A DNA stretch of 33,104 nt from the NCBI GenBank assembly GCA_001871925.1, contig MNWZ01000146.1, positions 1-33,104 on the forward strand. Reading direction: 5' to 3'. The translations under genes and the position numbers were made by a program. Every line of letters starts with the position of its first letter. Position 1 is the stretch's first letter. This document shows positions 412 to 6,383 of this stretch, piece after piece. Below the pieces are notes generated by a model that saw nothing but the letters and a program-made list of their open reading frames with translations, made no database searches and was not told where the DNA came from. Origin of the DNA: Zetaproteobacteria bacterium CG1_02_53_45 (GTDB taxonomy: Bacteria; Pseudomonadota; Zetaproteobacteria; Mariprofundales; Mariprofundaceae).

Positions 412-774
412 ATTTCACTTCATGACGAGCTTGAACAACTGCGCCAGGAAATGAAGTTAATCTTCATTCAGGCCTCAAATGATGAGGGGCTGGTGATGAC
501 TGAAGCCGGTGAGTCACCTGGTGAAGACTTTGCACCCTACTCGACTTCGGTGATGGAGTCCTCACAGAAGATGTCTGAGATTGCCGGTTTCGGAGATCCT
601 ATTTGTAGTGCTCTCGTGTTAAAGGGAGGGCGTATGCTGATTATGCATGAAGCCAGGATTGACGGGCAATCCGTGTATTTGTCCATACTGTGCAGCAGAG
701 TGCCTGCTGGCGTACAGGCATTGATCAAGAGGATCGTTGCATGCCTGACCAGGGCATTGACCGGAAATGAGTAA
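412..774 (+). CDS. Roadblock/LC7 domain protein R1 (probable ATT start)
   Basis: A 120-residue Roadblock/LC7 (longin-like) protein, a fold that acts as GAP, scaffold or regulator for small Ras-like GTPases such as MglA. The first in-frame ATG (451) lies after the N-terminal helix. Reading from ATT at 412 gives ISLHDELEQLRQE before the first strand. ATT sits 7 nt after a perfect AGGAGG (399-404), and an in-frame TAG at 406-408 blocks any earlier start. The protein aligns without gaps to R6 (9506-9859): both share a G-E-(S/T)-P-x-G-E-(D/E)-F-A segment, a VME(S/T) and a GFG(D/E)P(I/V)C motif, and begin at the same residue. It is first in an operon with R2 (12 nt gap) and R3. The shorter ATG form would lose helix 1. 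The fold call is from pattern recognition; the start is an inference. Confidence 0.75.
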   Translation: MSLHDELEQLRQEMKLIFIQASNDEGLVMTEAGESPGEDFAPYSTSVMESSQKMSEIAGFGDPICSALVLKGGRMLIMHEARIDGQSVYLSILCSRVPAGVQALIKRIVACLTRALTGNE

Positions 775-786
775 CAGGAGCAGTAA

Positions 787-1269
787 TTGAGTAACTACAA
801 AGAGTCCTGCCGCAGAGAACTCGAGCGCCTTGTTGAAAGAGAGGCCCACCTTGATGCCGCTTTGCTTTGTAGCGTCGATGGCTTGCCTGTGGCTTATGCA
901 TCATCTATTCAAATCGAGGCCGATGCCCTTTCAGCCATGTGCTCTTCCATGCTTTCACTGGGTGATGCCCTGGCCATTCAGGGTGGTGATGATACATGTA
1001 TTCAGGTTGTCACCCAATCCAGAGGTCGCACAGTTGCCCTGATTCACGCCGGAGAGGATATGCTGCTGGGCCTGATGGGAAGCCGTGAACTGAAACTCGG
1101 CATGTTACTGGGCCACGCCCGCAAAGAGGTGGAGGTGATTGTCGAACTGATCAATAAATCGCATCACGAAGCCAAACAGTCCGAGAACGCTAAAAAACCT
1201 GCAGAAAGGCAACCTGCCCTGCTGGAAGAACTGGTCAAACGTGTAATGCAGGAAGCTCAGGAGAGGTAA
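787..1269 (+). CDS. Roadblock/LC7 domain protein R2
   Basis: A 160-residue protein starting at TTG (787), with AGGAG at 776-780 just after the R1 stop. Residues about 5-125 have the LC7 pattern: an N-terminal helix (RRELERLVERE), the strand-turn 'AALLCSVDGLPVAYAS', a helix with SAMCSSMLSLGDALA, then strands ending in 'LLGLMGSRELKLGMLLGHAR'. A charged C-terminal extension (about 125-160, rich in Lys, Glu and Gln) ends in a predicted helix and could be a partner-binding tail. It is the middle gene of the R1-R2-R3 operon, 7 nt ahead of R3. LC7 proteins usually work as homo- or heterodimers, so consecutive genes may encode heterodimer partners (inference). Confidence 0.85.
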   Translation: MSNYKESCRRELERLVEREAHLDAALLCSVDGLPVAYASSIQIEADALSAMCSSMLSLGDALAIQGGDDTCIQVVTQSRGRTVALIHAGEDMLLGLMGSRELKLGMLLGHARKEVEVIVELINKSHHEAKQSENAKKPAERQPALLEELVKRVMQEAQER

Positions 1270-1276
1270 CACGACC

Positions 1277-1675
1277 ATGAACAAATTGTTGGGAAATCTT
1301 GTCAATGAGCTCGATGGTGCACTTGCAGCTGCAGTCGTTGATTTGAATAACGGCCTCTTGCTCGGTGCACATCATAACGTCCCCTATTTCACACAGTCTT
1401 ACGTTGATGCTGTCGGCGCCGCCGCAGTTGATATGTTTCGCGGCAAAACGATTACGGCTGTAGAAACCATGATGGCAGCACAACGTGGCGATGAAATTAA
1501 ATACCACATCAAAGAAATCCAGATGACAACTGACGGCACCTTCCATTTTATGGCCGTGGTGCCGGATAAACCGGATTACCTGCTTATTCTGGTGACCCGC
1601 ACCAACATCAGTCTGGGTGCCGGTTGGATGGCAGCCAGACAGGCGCTGAGAGAAGTATCTCCCGCCTGTCCGTAA
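1277..1675 (+). CDS. Roadblock/LC7-like protein R3
   Basis: A 132-residue protein starting at ATG 1277, with an AGGAGAGG purine stretch at the end of R2 as a somewhat distant ribosome site. It opens with LLGNLVNELDGALAAAVVDLNNGLLLGAHHN, which matches the helix, strand and turn of the Roadblock fold but with NNG where the other copies have xDG. A helix containing AAAVDMFRGKTI and strands around FHFMAVVPDKPDYLLILVTR follow. It is more divergent than R2, R4 and R5 and may be an LC7-like domain outside the core family. It closes the operon and converges on the kinase/phosphatase gene, whose stop lies 5 nt away. No hairpin terminator is visible in that gap, so read-through into the opposing gene is possible. 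Confidence 0.75.
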   Translation: MNKLLGNLVNELDGALAAAVVDLNNGLLLGAHHNVPYFTQSYVDAVGAAAVDMFRGKTITAVETMMAAQRGDEIKYHIKEIQMTTDGTFHFMAVVPDKPDYLLILVTRTNISLGAGWMAARQALREVSPACP

Positions 1676-1680
1676 ATCGT

Positions 1681-3204
1681 CTATTTCCCTGCGCGTAATC
1701 GCTCTATCACCAGGGCAGGAAAGCCGGCAGCCTCCATATCCCGGGCCACCATCTCGACATCATAAGGTAGAGAAAAAAGCTCCAGCTCCAGACTATCCGG
1801 ATAAAACACCGCCCCTTCCGCCTCCGCCTTACCTGCACTGCGAGGTTGCCCCACTGATCCGGGGCAAACCAGCGCCGCACTGTAAGACGCCAGATTCATG
1901 TGATCCTGACAGATTAATGGCAACACCAATCTGCCGCGCATGGCGTAAACCCCCTGAATATGGGAGTGCCCGTGCAGGCAGATTGGCATGTTTATGGAGA
2001 GCAGGTGATTCAGGTTTTTTTCAGCTGTCATATTATACACATAACCATTGAAAAAGGTTTTATCGATGGGCGAGCCATGCACCGCCATCCATCCATTTGC
2101 TTTATGACGTACAGGTAAAGCGCCCAGCCACTGTTTCTCCTGCCCATCAAGCTGATTCAGCGTCCAGTCCAGCGTCCACTTTGCAGTACTGCTTGAAGCA
2201 ACACTGACATCACCGTCATGCGCCACATAATGGTCATGGTTACCTCTGATGCAAAACACCTTGCGCTGCGCTGCCAGAGCGATACAGGCTTTCGGATGCG
2301 GGCCATAACCTACAATATCACCCAGCATCATAATCTGGGCAATGCCACGCCTTTCAAACTCTGCCAGTACTGCCTCAAAAGCCGGCAGGTTGGCATGTAC
2401 ATCTGCGATCAAACCAATGGGTTCACTTGACGAAAAATCACCCGATGTGGACTGAGCCATTGTTGTCCGGTAAGCGGGCCTGAGTTCAGCCAGAAACACC
2501 TGTTTCAGCTCTTCATGTGCACCAACCAGTTGATCGGCAAGTCCTTCATACAACACATCGTCTGCACCCGATGAATAATTTCTGAGCAACGGCCATAAAA
2601 AACGCCCCAGTTCCAGCCACGACGGCTCATGCAAACAGAATGCATCTGATTTCCTTAACCAGTTTGCCAGCATGGCGGAGAGCGATGAAAAGTTATCCCA
2701 TGGGTAGATGTCATCATCGACATACCAGAGTTTGCCGTCCAGGCAGGCAAAATTGGACAGCCCTTCATCCAGCCGCTTGCCAAAACCCCGGGTAAACTCG
2801 CAGTAAACCCGTAACACCTCTTTAAACACCCACAGTCGATCCTTTTCAGAAAAGGCTCTAAAATCAAACAGGTGCAGTGGCTTCAGTCTGGGCGTGATAT
2901 TGGCCACCAGCCAACGTTCGGTTTGAATAACCAACCATGTACGATCCGGATGATAGATCTGATACTGCTTCTCTTTCTGAATCTGCAACTCACACCACCT
3001 CAACGCGACCGACTCTGAGGAAAAGCTGCGATTGCCATTGATTTTCAGCACATGGCATGCATCAGTATAAATTTGCGTAGCAGGCTTGCCCGTAAAGGCA
3101 CCACCATGTGATAAAACCTGTGGCGTTGTCTGCAACAGTCTTTCCACCATTTTTGCAGTCGCCTTGATCTCATCAGAGAGGCTGCCAACAATATAAATCT
3201 CCAA
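1681..3204 (-). CDS. Kinase-like domain fused to calcineurin-like metallophosphoesterase
   Basis: A 507-residue protein starting at TTG (3204), with GGGGAGG 5 nt upstream. The C-terminal half (about 262-430) is a calcineurin-type metallophosphoesterase: ADVHAN (D268, H270), GD at 295-296, GNHD at 321-324, VHGSP (H376) and GHSH at 412-415 provide the usual dinuclear-metal ligands. The N-terminal half (about 1-240) looks like a divergent protein-kinase/aminoglycoside-kinase fold: a glycine-containing turn (HGGAFTGK), VLKI with Lys54, a catalytic-loop-like DEGLSN (D146, N151, the same five-residue spacing as HxDxxxxN) and VDDD (163-165) in the DFG/DFD position. The phosphatase call is firm from motifs; the kinase call is inference from residue spacing. 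It is divergent from R4 and convergent with R3, which suggests that it acts on the neighbouring LC7/GTPase module. If the N-terminal half is not a kinase, it is an uncharacterised domain. Confidence 0.8.
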   Translation of the reverse strand: MEIYIVGSLSDEIKATAKMVERLLQTTPQVLSHGGAFTGKPATQIYTDACHVLKINGNRSFSSESVALRWCELQIQKEKQYQIYHPDRTWLVIQTERWLVANITPRLKPLHLFDFRAFSEKDRLWVFKEVLRVYCEFTRGFGKRLDEGLSNFACLDGKLWYVDDDIYPWDNFSSLSAMLANWLRKSDAFCLHEPSWLELGRFLWPLLRNYSSGADDVLYEGLADQLVGAHEELKQVFLAELRPAYRTTMAQSTSGDFSSSEPIGLIADVHANLPAFEAVLAEFERRGIAQIMMLGDIVGYGPHPKACIALAAQRKVFCIRGNHDHYVAHDGDVSVASSSTAKWTLDWTLNQLDGQEKQWLGALPVRHKANGWMAVHGSPIDKTFFNGYVYNMTAEKNLNHLLSINMPICLHGHSHIQGVYAMRGRLVLPLICQDHMNLASYSAALVCPGSVGQPRSAGKAEAEGAVFYPDSLELELFSLPYDVEMVARDMEAAGFPALVIERLRAGK

Positions 3205-3348: not shown

Positions 3349-3756
3349 TTGAGCAACGCATCGGGTTTAACATTGGAAACGCGCTTGCAGGCGATTCTTG
3401 AGGAAACGCGCCAACTGCATAAGCTGCATTCACTGCTGCTTGCCGATAAAAACGGCTGGCCGGTCAGCCATGTGGGAAAAATAGCCCATGCAGGCATGGC
3501 TGCCATTGCCCCTGAACTGATTCGCGTTGGCGAGCATGCTGTTCGTTTAGGTGAATACAACAGCATCACCTGTATCGCACTTGTGCTCGAAGACAGTCAT
3601 CTGATGGTCATCAAAGATATTGAAATTAACGGGGAACCTTTTGTACTGGTCATGGACACGGCCACTGTTCCAAAAGGCATGAGAAAGCTGCTGGCTTCCT
3701 TGCGTGATCGCATCGCTCTGGCGATGCATACGGATAGAGAAAAAAGTCCCGAATAA
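3349..3756 (+). CDS. Roadblock/LC7 domain protein R4
   Basis: A 135-residue protein starting at TTG (3349), with an AGGGGGA ribosome site 6-7 nt upstream. The LC7 pattern is clear: the N-terminal helix ETRLQAILEETRQ, the strand-turn 'SLLLADKNGWPVSHVG' (D-x-x-G-x-P as in MglB-like proteins), the helix with APELIRVGEHAVRLG, and the strands 'CIALVLEDSHLMVIKDIE' and 'PFVLVMDTA', then a final helix. It heads a run with the ODP protein (38 nt downstream) and R5, which suggests that a redox or oxygen input and two LC7 proteins are made together. No catalytic residues are expected in this fold. Confidence 0.85.
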   Translation: MSNASGLTLETRLQAILEETRQLHKLHSLLLADKNGWPVSHVGKIAHAGMAAIAPELIRVGEHAVRLGEYNSITCIALVLEDSHLMVIKDIEINGEPFVLVMDTATVPKGMRKLLASLRDRIALAMHTDREKSPE

Positions 3757-3794
3757 ATCGCTGCAGCAAGACATTGTCAGGAGGACATAAAACT

Positions 3795-4544
3795 ATGGCA
3801 GATATACTTTTTGAAAATGATGAACACCGGTGCATCTTCTTTGAAGATTTCACTGAAGGTGAAATGGTCTCGGCAAACCAGCATCTGATTATCCATAAAG
3901 GTAAAGGCATGCTGCTCGATCCGGGTGGCCATAAAGTGTATTCGAAAATCATGTCCTCCATGCCGGAGTTCCTTGCGCCATCAGCCCTGAGATATCTCTT
4001 TCTCTCGCACCAGGATCCGGACATCGTCGCTTCGGTAAACGGCTGGCTGATGATTACCGATGCGGATGCCTACCTCTCCGCTATCTGGAAACGATTTGTC
4101 GCCCACTTCGGTGTTGATGGCAGCGTGATGGATCGCATGATAGAGATTCCCGACCAGGGCATGCGCCTTGACCTTGAAGGCTGTGAACTGATGATTATCC
4201 CGGCCCACTTCCTGCACTCTGCCGGCAACTTCCATGTCTACGATCCAATATCAAAGATTCTGTACTCCGGTGATCTCGGTGCTGCTCTGGTGGATTATCG
4301 TTTTGTTGAGGACTTCGAAGCCCACACGGCCCATATGGCCGGATTCCACAAGCGTTACATGGCCAGCAACACAGCCTGCAAGGCATGGGCGAAGATGGTT
4401 CGCGAGCTGGACATTGAAATCATCGCACCCCAGCACGGTGCCATGTTCTGCGGCAAAACTATGGTGAATCAGTTTATCGACTGGGTTGAATGCCTCGATG
4501 TGGGGGCTGACGCCATGCAAGATATCTACAAGCTACCTGCATAA
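3795..4544 (+). CDS. Flavodiiron-type metallo-beta-lactamase (ODP) protein
   Basis: A 249-residue protein from ATG 3795, with AGGAGG at 3779-3784. It has a metallo-beta-lactamase fold of the oxygen-reducing/oxygen-binding diiron kind. SHQDPD supplies H72, D74 and D76, matching the H-x-E-x-D of flavodiiron proteins with Asp for Glu. PAHFLHS supplies H138 or H141, YSGDLG supplies D160 and PQHG supplies H214. There is no flavodoxin or rubredoxin domain, so electron transfer to FMN is absent. Stand-alone ODP proteins are known as O2- or NO-binding sensors in chemotaxis-like systems. It sits between two Roadblock genes (R4 upstream, R5 21 nt downstream), which suggests that it provides a gas or redox signal to the LC7/GTPase module. 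Metal binding is inferred from motifs; hydrolase activity on another substrate cannot be excluded. Confidence 0.8.
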   Translation: MADILFENDEHRCIFFEDFTEGEMVSANQHLIIHKGKGMLLDPGGHKVYSKIMSSMPEFLAPSALRYLFLSHQDPDIVASVNGWLMITDADAYLSAIWKRFVAHFGVDGSVMDRMIEIPDQGMRLDLEGCELMIIPAHFLHSAGNFHVYDPISKILYSGDLGAALVDYRFVEDFEAHTAHMAGFHKRYMASNTACKAWAKMVRELDIEIIAPQHGAMFCGKTMVNQFIDWVECLDVGADAMQDIYKLPA

Positions 4545-4565: not shown

Positions 4566-4931
4566 ATGGCGACAAAACAGGAAAGAATCAACGCTGTACT
4601 GGATGAGTTGAAAATGGCTACATCCGATATTCAGGGCAGTGGTGTTATCAGCCCGGACGGCATGATGATTGCCAACAAGCTGGACGGCGACCAGGGCGAT
4701 GCGGCTGCAGCCATGGGCGCTGCACTGGCAAGCCTTTCCAAACGTGTGTCGGACACACTGAAGGTCGGCGACTTCCAGGAGGTAAACATCCGCGGTGCCA
4801 ACGCCGGCATCCTGCTCTTCGATATTGAACACCGGGCCTCACTGATTGTGAAAGTATCCAAGGGCGCAAACCTTGGACTGGTATTTCTGGAAGCAAGGCA
4901 GGCCCAGAATCAGCTCGGCCAGATTATCTGA
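4566..4931 (+). CDS. Roadblock/LC7 domain protein R5 (MglB-like)
   Basis: A 121-residue, single-domain Roadblock/LC7 protein and the most canonical copy here. ATG 4566 follows a strong AAGGAGG 5-6 nt upstream. The helix ERINAVLDELKMA leads into 'GSGVISPDGMMIANKL' (SPDGxxIA is the classic LC7 beta-turn), then an Ala-rich helix AAAAMGAALASLSKRV, the strand pair around FQEVNIRGANAGILLFDI and SLIVKVSKGANLGLVFLEA, and a C-terminal helix. It resembles archaeal and bacterial MglB-type GAPs. As the last gene before the GTPase operon it is the best candidate for the direct GTPase partner (inference). Confidence 0.88.
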   Translation: MATKQERINAVLDELKMATSDIQGSGVISPDGMMIANKLDGDQGDAAAAMGAALASLSKRVSDTLKVGDFQEVNIRGANAGILLFDIEHRASLIVKVSKGANLGLVFLEARQAQNQLGQII

Positions 4932-5129: not shown

Positions 5130-5163
5130 TCCTAACATATTGGGCTTTGAGAGGGTATTCATA

Positions 5164-5799
5164 ATGAATTCACTTGTATATCTACGCCGTATGATCATCA
5201 ACCAGAAACCTGCGCGAGTTGATTATACAGTGGGCAGTGAAACGAACAGTATTTATTACGAGCGAGCCGGCTTTGAGGGCTCCTATGATGAAGTGACGAC
5301 GCAACTCAGGGATATTTTCGAGTCTGATAATGTCAATGTTATCACCACATCGGATTTCAATCCCCTGAGCAGCAAAAGGATATTTGCCCCGCAGGCCATA
5401 TCGGCTGCCCTTGCCGGTTACACATTTAATGCTGAAACACGCGCATCACTGCTCAGCTTTGTCATGCGTTTACCGCCCCTCGTGGTCAGACTTTATCCCA
5501 TGCAGCGATATGCATTTCAGGATAACTCCGCTTATATGAAGATGCATATGATGTACCAGCAGAACGGCGTGCTGCGTATGCAGAATTACATCTCCCAGTC
5601 TGAAAACTCCCGTGATGAGATGATCCGCCTGAGGGTGATGATGGCCACCTATATTCTGGGCCTGATTGCACCACTGAATTCCAGCGCACAGCAGAAAAGC
5701 ATACGAACGCAGCAGATAAACACGCAACGCGATGAAAAGAAGAAAAGCGGCAAGGTTTCCATCCTGACCAGACTTATCAACAGAATCAGAGGACTATAA
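5164..5799 (+). CDS. Unknown protein coupled to the small GTPase
   Basis: A 211-residue protein that I do not recognise. ATG 5164 has an AGAGGG site upstream; a TTG at 5140 would add eight residues but precedes that site. It looks soluble: an alpha/beta N-terminal part (about 1-80) with an acidic stretch around TTQLRDIFESDNVNVITTS, and a helical middle part (about 90-175) with many Met and aromatic residues (MKMHMMYQQNGVLRMQ). The basic tail (about 180-211) is rich in Lys and Arg and could bind membrane, nucleic acid or the acidic tail of the GTPase. Its stop overlaps the GTPase start by one base (TAATG), implying translational coupling and probably a shared complex. A role as effector or exchange factor is only inference from position. 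Confidence 0.7.
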   Translation: MNSLVYLRRMIINQKPARVDYTVGSETNSIYYERAGFEGSYDEVTTQLRDIFESDNVNVITTSDFNPLSSKRIFAPQAISAALAGYTFNAETRASLLSFVMRLPPLVVRLYPMQRYAFQDNSAYMKMHMMYQQNGVLRMQNYISQSENSRDEMIRLRVMMATYILGLIAPLNSSAQQKSIRTQQINTQRDEKKKSGKVSILTRLINRIRGL

Positions 5800-6383
5800 T
5801 GGTGGGCGAAGAGAAACAGATTGTAAAACTGGTGATTACCGGACCGGTAAATGCCGGTAAAACCACTATGGTACAGAATCTGAGCGATTCCCAGATTGCC
5901 GCCACCGATGTGGCCGCCACCGACTCCGTTTCACAACTCAAGGCGATGACCACTGTCGGACTGGATTTCGGTATCCTCAAAATTGATGAGCACCTGGAAT
6001 TGCATCTGTTTGGAACACCGGGTCAGTCCCGTTTCAATTTCATGTGGAATATTCTCTCCAAAGGAGCCATTGGCGCTATTTTTCTGGTGGACAGCACCAG
6101 TGACGATTCGATGGCCGAGATGAAAAAGATGTTCGCATACTACGCGGAACATGTTGATTTGCCGGTCATCGTAGGTGCCACCAAGCAGGACCTGCCGGGT
6201 GCCCGAAGTGTCGATGAAATCGCTGCGCTGCTGGATCTCGGTGATGTCATGGTTATCCCGGTCGACGCACGCGAGAAAGAAGGCAGTAAAATGCTGGCTC
6301 TGACCCTGCTCGGCAATGCTCTTGTTGAAGCCGGAGCTGAAGACGAATACGACGATGAAATGGAATACGATGACCTGTTTTAA
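5799..6383 (+). CDS. MglA/Arf-like small GTPase (COG2229 type)
   Basis: A 194-residue Ras-superfamily GTPase. The P-loop is GPVNAGKTT (15-23); switch I holds T51/T52; the G3 region is FGTPGQ (71-76), with Gly in place of the usual Asp of DxxGQ, as known in COG2229/MglA-like bacterial GTPases. G4 is TKQD (128-131), a variant of NKxD, and G5 is around PVDAREK. The C-terminus (about 176-193) is strongly acidic (EDEYDDEMEYDD), an unusual tail. No membrane anchor or Cys prenylation site is visible, so it is likely cytoplasmic. Coupled by one-base overlap to the unknown gene upstream and surrounded by six Roadblock genes, it is the only small GTPase in the island and presumably their common partner (inference). 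Confidence 0.9.
   Translation: MVGEEKQIVKLVITGPVNAGKTTMVQNLSDSQIAATDVAATDSVSQLKAMTTVGLDFGILKIDEHLELHLFGTPGQSRFNFMWNILSKGAIGAIFLVDSTSDDSMAEMKKMFAYYAEHVDLPVIVGATKQDLPGARSVDEIAALLDLGDVMVIPVDAREKEGSKMLALTLLGNALVEAGAEDEYDDEMEYDDLF

Follow-up and report, generated by a model that had tools for sequence, protein, structure and literature searches.

A putative AceK-like kinase fused to a calcineurin-like phosphatase and associated with roadblock and small-GTPase genes in Zetaproteobacteria and other bacteria

Proteins that both attach and remove phosphate within one chain are already known. AceK, the isocitrate dehydrogenase kinase/phosphatase, runs both reactions in a single shared active site (PMC6591243). 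HPr kinase/phosphorylase, a P-loop kinase, has one active site, and bacterial Pnkp, the polynucleotide kinase-phosphatase, combines a kinase and a calcineurin-like phosphatase in one chain. Known regulators of bacterial Ras-like GTPases, for their part, include roadblock proteins and response regulators; the Myxococcus polarity module MglA/MglB/MglC/RomR, for example, contains a Ras-like GTPase together with roadblock regulators. A survey of prokaryotic Ras-like GTPases uses neither the word phosphatase nor the word phosphoesterase anywhere in its text (PMC4316618).

In this work, we analyze a gene of Zetaproteobacteria bacterium CG1_02_53_45 located in a stretch of 33,104 nucleotides (contig MNWZ01000146.1), which is called the window below. 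The reading that we prefer, with a probability of about 0.6, is that the product combines in one chain an AceK-like kinase and a calcineurin-like phosphatase dedicated to a roadblock/MglA-type GTPase module. The computational support consists of the fusion itself, the predicted kinase-like fold, the conservation of the catalytic residues, the intact phosphatase motifs and a tight co-occurrence with one roadblock protein, LC7a. The features of the region are as follows.

451..774, plus strand: small protein in the same blastp cluster as the product of 3349-3756; no Pfam match
787..1269, plus strand: LC7b, roadblock/LC7 protein (Robl_LC7 9e-10)
1277..1675, plus strand: LC7a, MglC-like roadblock protein, 132 aa, the constant companion of the fusion (matches to the 7ct3 and LC7b profiles, co-occurrence)
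1681..3204, minus strand: kinase-like/metallophosphoesterase fusion protein, 507 aa, TTG start at 3204
1684..2424, minus strand: calcineurin-like metallophosphoesterase domain, residues 261-507 (Pfam, hmmsearch, Foldseek; closest solved relative 3rqz)
2476..3204, minus strand: protein-kinase-like domain, residues 1-243 (AlphaFold2, Foldseek, hhalign; outside all Pfam families, nearest to the kinase domain of AceK)
2710..2718, minus strand: D163-D164-D165, putative metal-binding (DFG-equivalent) segment; D163 and D164 in 81/81
2752..2769, minus strand: D146-EGLS-N151, putative catalytic loop; D and N in 81/81 and kept in divergent members
2971..2973, minus strand: E78, putative alpha-C glutamate (helix 64-81); 80/81, outside the search pattern
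3043..3045, minus strand: K54, putative beta-3 lysine (VLKI); 81/81, outside the search pattern
3349..3756, plus strand: weakly roadblock/LC7-like protein (LAMTOR5 0.012, Robl_LC7 0.025, both below cut-off)
3774..4544, plus strand: ODP-family protein with a metallo-beta-lactamase fold (ODP 1.2e-74)
4566..4931, plus strand: roadblock/LC7 protein (Robl_LC7 1.2e-11)
5140..5799, plus strand: c7, a conserved neighbor of unknown family, present in 17 loci; no Pfam match
5799..6383, plus strand: small Ras/MglA-like GTPase (Arf 2.8e-13, Ras 1.4e-8; P-loop GPVNAGKTT, G3 segment GTPGQ)

A preliminary description, made from the sequence alone, had proposed a kinase-phosphatase fusion at 1681-3204. These coordinates are right, the strand, which was left unstated, is minus, and the presence of both motif sets in a single reading frame is confirmed. 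The TTG coincides in the alignment with the ATG at which close homologues begin. The ODP-family protein of the window lies within the roadblock island, and the family is seen again at nine of the fusion loci. The G3 segment of the window GTPase reads GTPGQ where Ras has DTAGQ, so that the aspartate is replaced by glycine.

Residues 1-243 belong to no family in Pfam or NCBIfam, no kinase HMM in either library detects them, and no credible sequence match was found in the PDB. The AlphaFold2 model of this domain, built with 61 homologues, has a pLDDT of 95.5 and a pTM of 0.91 (95.0 and 0.90 for the full-length model). In this model, strands 43-47 and 51-61, the latter carrying K54, are followed by helix 64-81 with E78 and by strands 89-94 and 98-105; then come helix 120-141, the loop D146-N151, strands 152-155 and 158-161, D163, and further helices. 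The elements thus appear in the order found in kinases, that is, beta-beta3(K54)-alphaC(E78)-beta4-beta5-linker-alphaE-loop(D146/N151)-beta7-beta8-D163. The N-lobe is not canonical: the model shows residues 25-42, including a conserved FTG[KR]P, as coil. When the model is compared with the PDB by Foldseek, 48 of the 50 listed matches bear the names of kinase-fold proteins (GCN2, AceK, APH(2''), CK1, Syk, PknG and WbdD among them), with probabilities of up to 1.00; the two others are 8cba (TraF domain) and 7cyr (MSMEG_1954, with no kinase in the record). The scores are weak, with a best E-value of 1.8e-3, none reaching 1e-3, and TM-scores mostly between 0.25 and 0.45.

A problem to be considered is that the domain might be a ligand-binding domain other than a kinase, in which the motif spacing arose by chance. 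The lack of any HMM match in the family libraries and the modest Foldseek E-value speak for this explanation; the confident model, the predominance of kinases among the listed structural matches and the invariant residues at the expected positions speak against it, and we regard it as very improbable. In our judgment it is very likely that the N-terminal domain has a kinase-like fold, although this rests on a predicted model and not on an experimental structure.

To assess conservation, we aligned the window protein with 80 of its relatives. The homologues were gathered from relatives, from a genome-wide motif scan with the patterns [RK]LD[ED]GLSNF and DDD[IL]Y[PA]WD, and from two profile searches of the sampled genomes. 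K54, D146, N151, D163 and D164, as well as G39, T43 and W90, are invariant in all 81 sequences, and E78 is present in all but one. The search patterns include D146-N151 and D163-D164, so that selection accounts for part of the invariance there; K54, E78, G39, T43 and W90 lie outside the patterns and are free of this bias. In addition, the whole-profile search, which requires no fixed motif, recovered members with divergent loops (LDISLSNF, LDLCLSNF, LDLSLSNF, LDFAPSNF and LDEDLTNF, and in one case YLDDQ), and these divergent members keep K54, D146, N151, F152, D163 and D164. Such variation around fixed residues is what a catalytic site would show and a merely frozen motif would not, as far as can be inferred from sequence, catalysis itself being an inference. 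The catalytic Asp and the Asn are 5 positions apart; of 77 members, 58 have a spacing of 13 from the Asn to the metal Asp and 16 have a spacing of 12. The features of the protein-kinase-like superfamily are thus present: the order of elements, the beta-3 Lys, the alpha-C Glu, the catalytic Asp, the Asn at D+5 and the metal Asp. The histidine of HRD and the lysine at D+2 are missing, with LDEG at the HRD position.

The preliminary description had placed K54 in VLKI, D146 and N151 in DEGLSN and D163-D165 in VDDD, and all of these hold. It had also named two checks of its kinase interpretation: a kinase-like fold of residues 1-250, which is favored by the AlphaFold2 model and Foldseek, and conservation of K54, D146, N151 and D163 among homologues, which is met and favors a kinase. 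The interpretation is thus supported.

Two rival explanations accept the fold but assign it another function. First, the domain may be a pseudokinase or an ATP sensor with control over the phosphatase to which it is fused. The atypical N-lobe, the weak fold scores and the absence of experimental activity leave room for this. Pseudokinases, however, usually lose some of the Lys, Glu, catalytic Asp, Asn and metal Asp, all of which are retained here in essentially all members, and we consider this explanation unlikely. Second, the domain may transfer a group other than phosphoryl, such as AMP, as does the kinase-fold protein SelO, with the metallophosphoesterase removing the modification. Kinase-fold AMPylators do exist, and the metallophosphoesterase superfamily includes phosphodiesterases. 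On the other hand, no SelO-like protein is among the listed PDB matches, and the order and spacing of the motifs fit phosphotransferases; there is very little to recommend this explanation. We thus return to an active phosphotransferase as the likely function of the N-terminal domain, with catalysis remaining inferred.

Which kinase family comes closest was examined by structure and by profile-profile comparison. AceK appears at ranks 2, 6, 36 and 41 of the Foldseek list. In hhalign, a profile of nine genome-derived AceK kinase domains gives a score of 34.5, an E-value of 3.4e-4 and a probability of 38%, with partial coverage of the domain that does not include K54. As a control, 40 column-permuted queries scored at most 21.2 against this profile; this control is limited to the columns filled in the window protein, for which the real score is 27.4. 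Note that the probability depends on the settings, being 38% in the default local mode and 5% with other settings. Among the five kinase families compared in this way, AceK is the only one above background. The alignment pairs TPRLKPLH of the fusion with ERRMTPLN of AceK, DEGLSNF with DMLLKNF, and the VDDD segment with YDYD; outside the local alignment, VFKI of AceK corresponds by eye to VLKI around K54. The motif order is accordingly VFKI/ERRMTPLN/DMLLKNF/YDYDE in AceK and VLKI/TPRLKPLH/DEGLSNF/VDDD in the fusion, and the Asn-to-Asp spacing of 13 in AceK is the one seen in the majority of fusion members. The profile match taken alone is too weak to establish a remote relation to AceK, but together with the Foldseek ranks, the aligned motifs and the spacing it makes a relation in fold probable, and the earlier remark that isocitrate dehydrogenase kinase/phosphatase has an unrelated fold is probably wrong. 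Nevertheless, the fusion is not an AceK: AceK_kinase (PF06315) does not match it in Pfam scans, and the domain architecture is different.

Other kinase relationships were considered and rejected. The profile signals of the Hanks, APH, Kdo and ABC1 kinases are at background. An identity as a eukaryotic-like (Hanks) Ser/Thr kinase is further disfavored by the lack of a Pkinase (PF00069) match, of HRD and of the D+2 Lys. A Walker-A P-loop kinase was suggested by GxxxTGKP at residues 34-41; here K40 is often Arg, and P41 occupies the S/T position.

The C-terminal half comprises an entire metallophosphoesterase of the calcineurin-like type. Residues 262-458 match Metallophos_2 (1.3e-15) and Metallophos (8e-12) in the Pfam scan, and the half as a whole matches 3rqz, a Sphaerobacter enzyme, with E-values of 7.6e-57 in hmmsearch and 2.6e-18 in Foldseek at 32-33% identity. 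All five metallophosphoesterase motifs are present (D268xH270, G295D296, G321N322H323D324, H376 and G412H413xH415), as had been claimed at the outset, and the corresponding metal-ligand motifs DxH, GD, GNHD, H and GHxH are almost invariant in the 81-sequence alignment. The relatives of this half include the nucleotide hydrolase SapH (Ap4A), found by Foldseek, and YfcE-type phosphodiesterases; with a nucleotide hydrolase among its relatives, the phosphatase may act on something other than a protein. The stand-alone enzymes 3rqz, 1nnw and SapH (3qfm) have the same fold and motifs but, unlike the fusion, no kinase domain.

These relatives bear on a further rival explanation, in which a small-molecule kinase (APH-like or fructosamine-kinase-like) and a metabolite or nucleotide phosphatase make or remove a signal that is sensed by the roadblock/GTPase module. 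In its favor are the Ap4A hydrolase and phosphodiesterase relatives of the phosphatase and the presence of APH(2'') among the Foldseek matches. Against it, the APH, Kdo and ABC1 profiles give no signal while AceK, a protein kinase, stands out, and the tight link to one roadblock protein shown below suggests a protein partner, although a metabolite signal could mimic such a link. This explanation seems unlikely, and the AceK-like protein kinase remains our preferred reading.

In every complete homologue examined, the kinase-like domain is fused to a metallophosphoesterase, and the length is in essentially all cases about 500-530 aa or somewhat more. No stand-alone N-terminal domain without the phosphatase was found among the sampled homologues; the apparent exceptions trace to truncation at a contig end, to short frames or, at one locus, to masking of the sequence. 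Fusion loci occur in Mariprofundus and other Zetaproteobacteria, in Methylovulum and other Methylococcales, in Thiomargarita, Beggiatoa, Contendobacter, Solimonas and Marinobacterium, and in single MAGs labelled Nitrospira and Phycisphaerales. Annotation probably describes these genes merely as metallophosphoesterases, since neither Pfam nor NCBIfam has a family for the kinase-like half. As a separate observation, phosphatase and kinase are encoded as an unfused pair at one locus (L015, G038:C1:628742-629476 and 629569-630336), where a Hanks-type kinase domain is immediately preceded, in the same orientation, by a stand-alone relative of the phosphatase half.

The neighborhood of the fusion was examined by profile searches of six-frame translations. 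A roadblock or GTPase gene flanks 74 of the 81 fusion loci: a roadblock gene is present at 66 loci, a GTPase gene at 58 and both at 50. These neighbors are found in either orientation and in varied orders, including a co-directional c3-GTPase-LC7a-fusion arrangement. The association with LC7 and GTPase genes, first noticed in the window, thus holds and recurs across lineages. The directly adjoining gene of the LC7 island, LC7a at 1277-1675, is not recognized by Pfam, and its roadblock identity had to be demonstrated. Its profile matches Myxococcus MglC (7ct3) with an E-value of 6.7e-4, and LC7b, which is confirmed by Pfam, with an hhalign E-value of 5.6e-5; because of these matches LC7a is identified as a divergent MglC-like roadblock protein. 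The LC7a family is the most constant partner of the fusion.

Several details of the neighborhoods are recorded here in their own right. Across loci L016-L095, the order and orientation of the genes around the fusion have been reshuffled repeatedly with a similar set of partners. Cluster c3 (25 loci; for example, L031:11201-12214) is a conserved neighbor of about 340 aa, often preceding the GTPase gene; it has no Pfam match, and its N-terminal part resembles by eye a degenerate receiver domain. In several Thiomargarita, Beggiatoa and Methylococcales loci (L036, L044, L049, L064 and others), the separate small GTPase is replaced by a neighbor of about 240 to 1080 aa containing a GTPase-like region.

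The co-occurrence of the fusion and LC7a was counted at three levels. Within the genus, both are present in 11 genomes and neither in 11, and in one more there is only a fragment of the fusion. The second sample covered 274 genomes of a single class, which we take to be Gammaproteobacteria because two members match Thiotrichaceae and Thiomargarita loci. Here, a close LC7a, scoring above 150 bits, is present in 12/12 fusion-positive genomes and in only 2/262 fusion-negative ones (Fisher p 3e-19); one weakly matching short frame was left out of the counts. In a sample of 398 Pseudomonadota genomes, 28 have both, 4 the fusion only, 2 LC7a only and 364 neither (Fisher p 2e-36), one weak match with internal stops being omitted. 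The mismatches in the latter sample may stem from fragmented assemblies (160-470 contigs or more). Note that the p-values are not corrected for shared ancestry. Moreover, in all eight genomes checked in which the fusion has no adjacent roadblock gene, LC7a is present elsewhere in the genome, so that the coupling does not rest on adjacency alone.

The LC7a copies associated with the fusion also differ from others in sequence. They share a PYFTxxYxDAV loop and EVQM(T/S)T...T(Y/F)H(F/Y)M, whereas distant LC7a proteins of fusion-free genomes mostly replace P36, Y37, T39, Q82, M83, K98, T107, G116 and W117. Among the potentially phosphorylatable positions, fusion-associated copies conserve Y37, T39 and T107, which most fusion-free relatives have replaced, and T88 is invariant in the former and retained in 4 of 10 of the latter. 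The residues that differ with the presence of the fusion are possible sites of interaction or modification, which has not been demonstrated.

In the mechanism that we propose, the kinase domain (1-243) would use ATP to phosphorylate a Ser, Thr or Tyr residue on LC7a or on a direct partner, and the phosphatase domain (261-507) would take that phosphate off, so that writer and eraser reside in one chain. Because roadblock proteins regulate Ras-like GTPases, the phosphate on the roadblock protein or its partner would set the state of the small MglA-type GTPase switch. Catalysis, the opposition of the two domains on one substrate, the role of LC7a as that substrate and the effect on the GTPase are all inferred, and direct evidence on the substrate is lacking. 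That the target lies somewhere within the roadblock/GTPase module is a likely inference; that it is LC7a itself is also inferred, and here we lean slightly against. A bolder reading is that an AceK-related kinase fused to a phosphatase reversibly phosphorylates an MglC-type roadblock protein, forming a Ras-like GTPase switch under the control of phosphorylation, distributed over Zetaproteobacteria, Gammaproteobacteria and a scatter of other phyla. The present evidence falls a little short of favoring it.

In the open-licence literature that we searched, nothing relevant was found on kinase-metallophosphoesterase fusions or on roadblock/MglA proteins with metallophosphoesterases, and in particular no AceK-like kinase with a metallophosphoesterase tied to a roadblock/GTPase module; this absence is weak evidence. 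The comparison with HPr kinase/phosphorylase and AceK made in the preliminary description had already acknowledged the one-chain precedents. With HPr kinase/phosphorylase, the likeness is in logic only, one protein adding and removing phosphate, and no resemblance to the fusion emerged in the searches made. Pnkp has a P-loop kinase, whereas the predicted fold of the fusion is kinase-like. Compared with the Myxococcus module, LC7a is MglC-like, but no kinase-phosphatase was found mentioned with that module, unlike the roadblock/GTPase context of the fusion. AceK is, as proposed for the fusion, a bifunctional kinase/phosphatase in one chain. In AceK, however, an N-terminal regulatory domain precedes a C-terminal kinase domain, whereas in the fusion the kinase-like domain precedes a separate metallophosphoesterase domain, in place of a shared active site, and the gene lies among roadblock and GTPase genes, unlike that of AceK. 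If our reading is true, the fusion adds reversible protein phosphorylation to the control of Ras-like GTPases, and represents a second solution, with two active sites, to the bifunctional logic of AceK, possibly derived from a common kinase ancestor.
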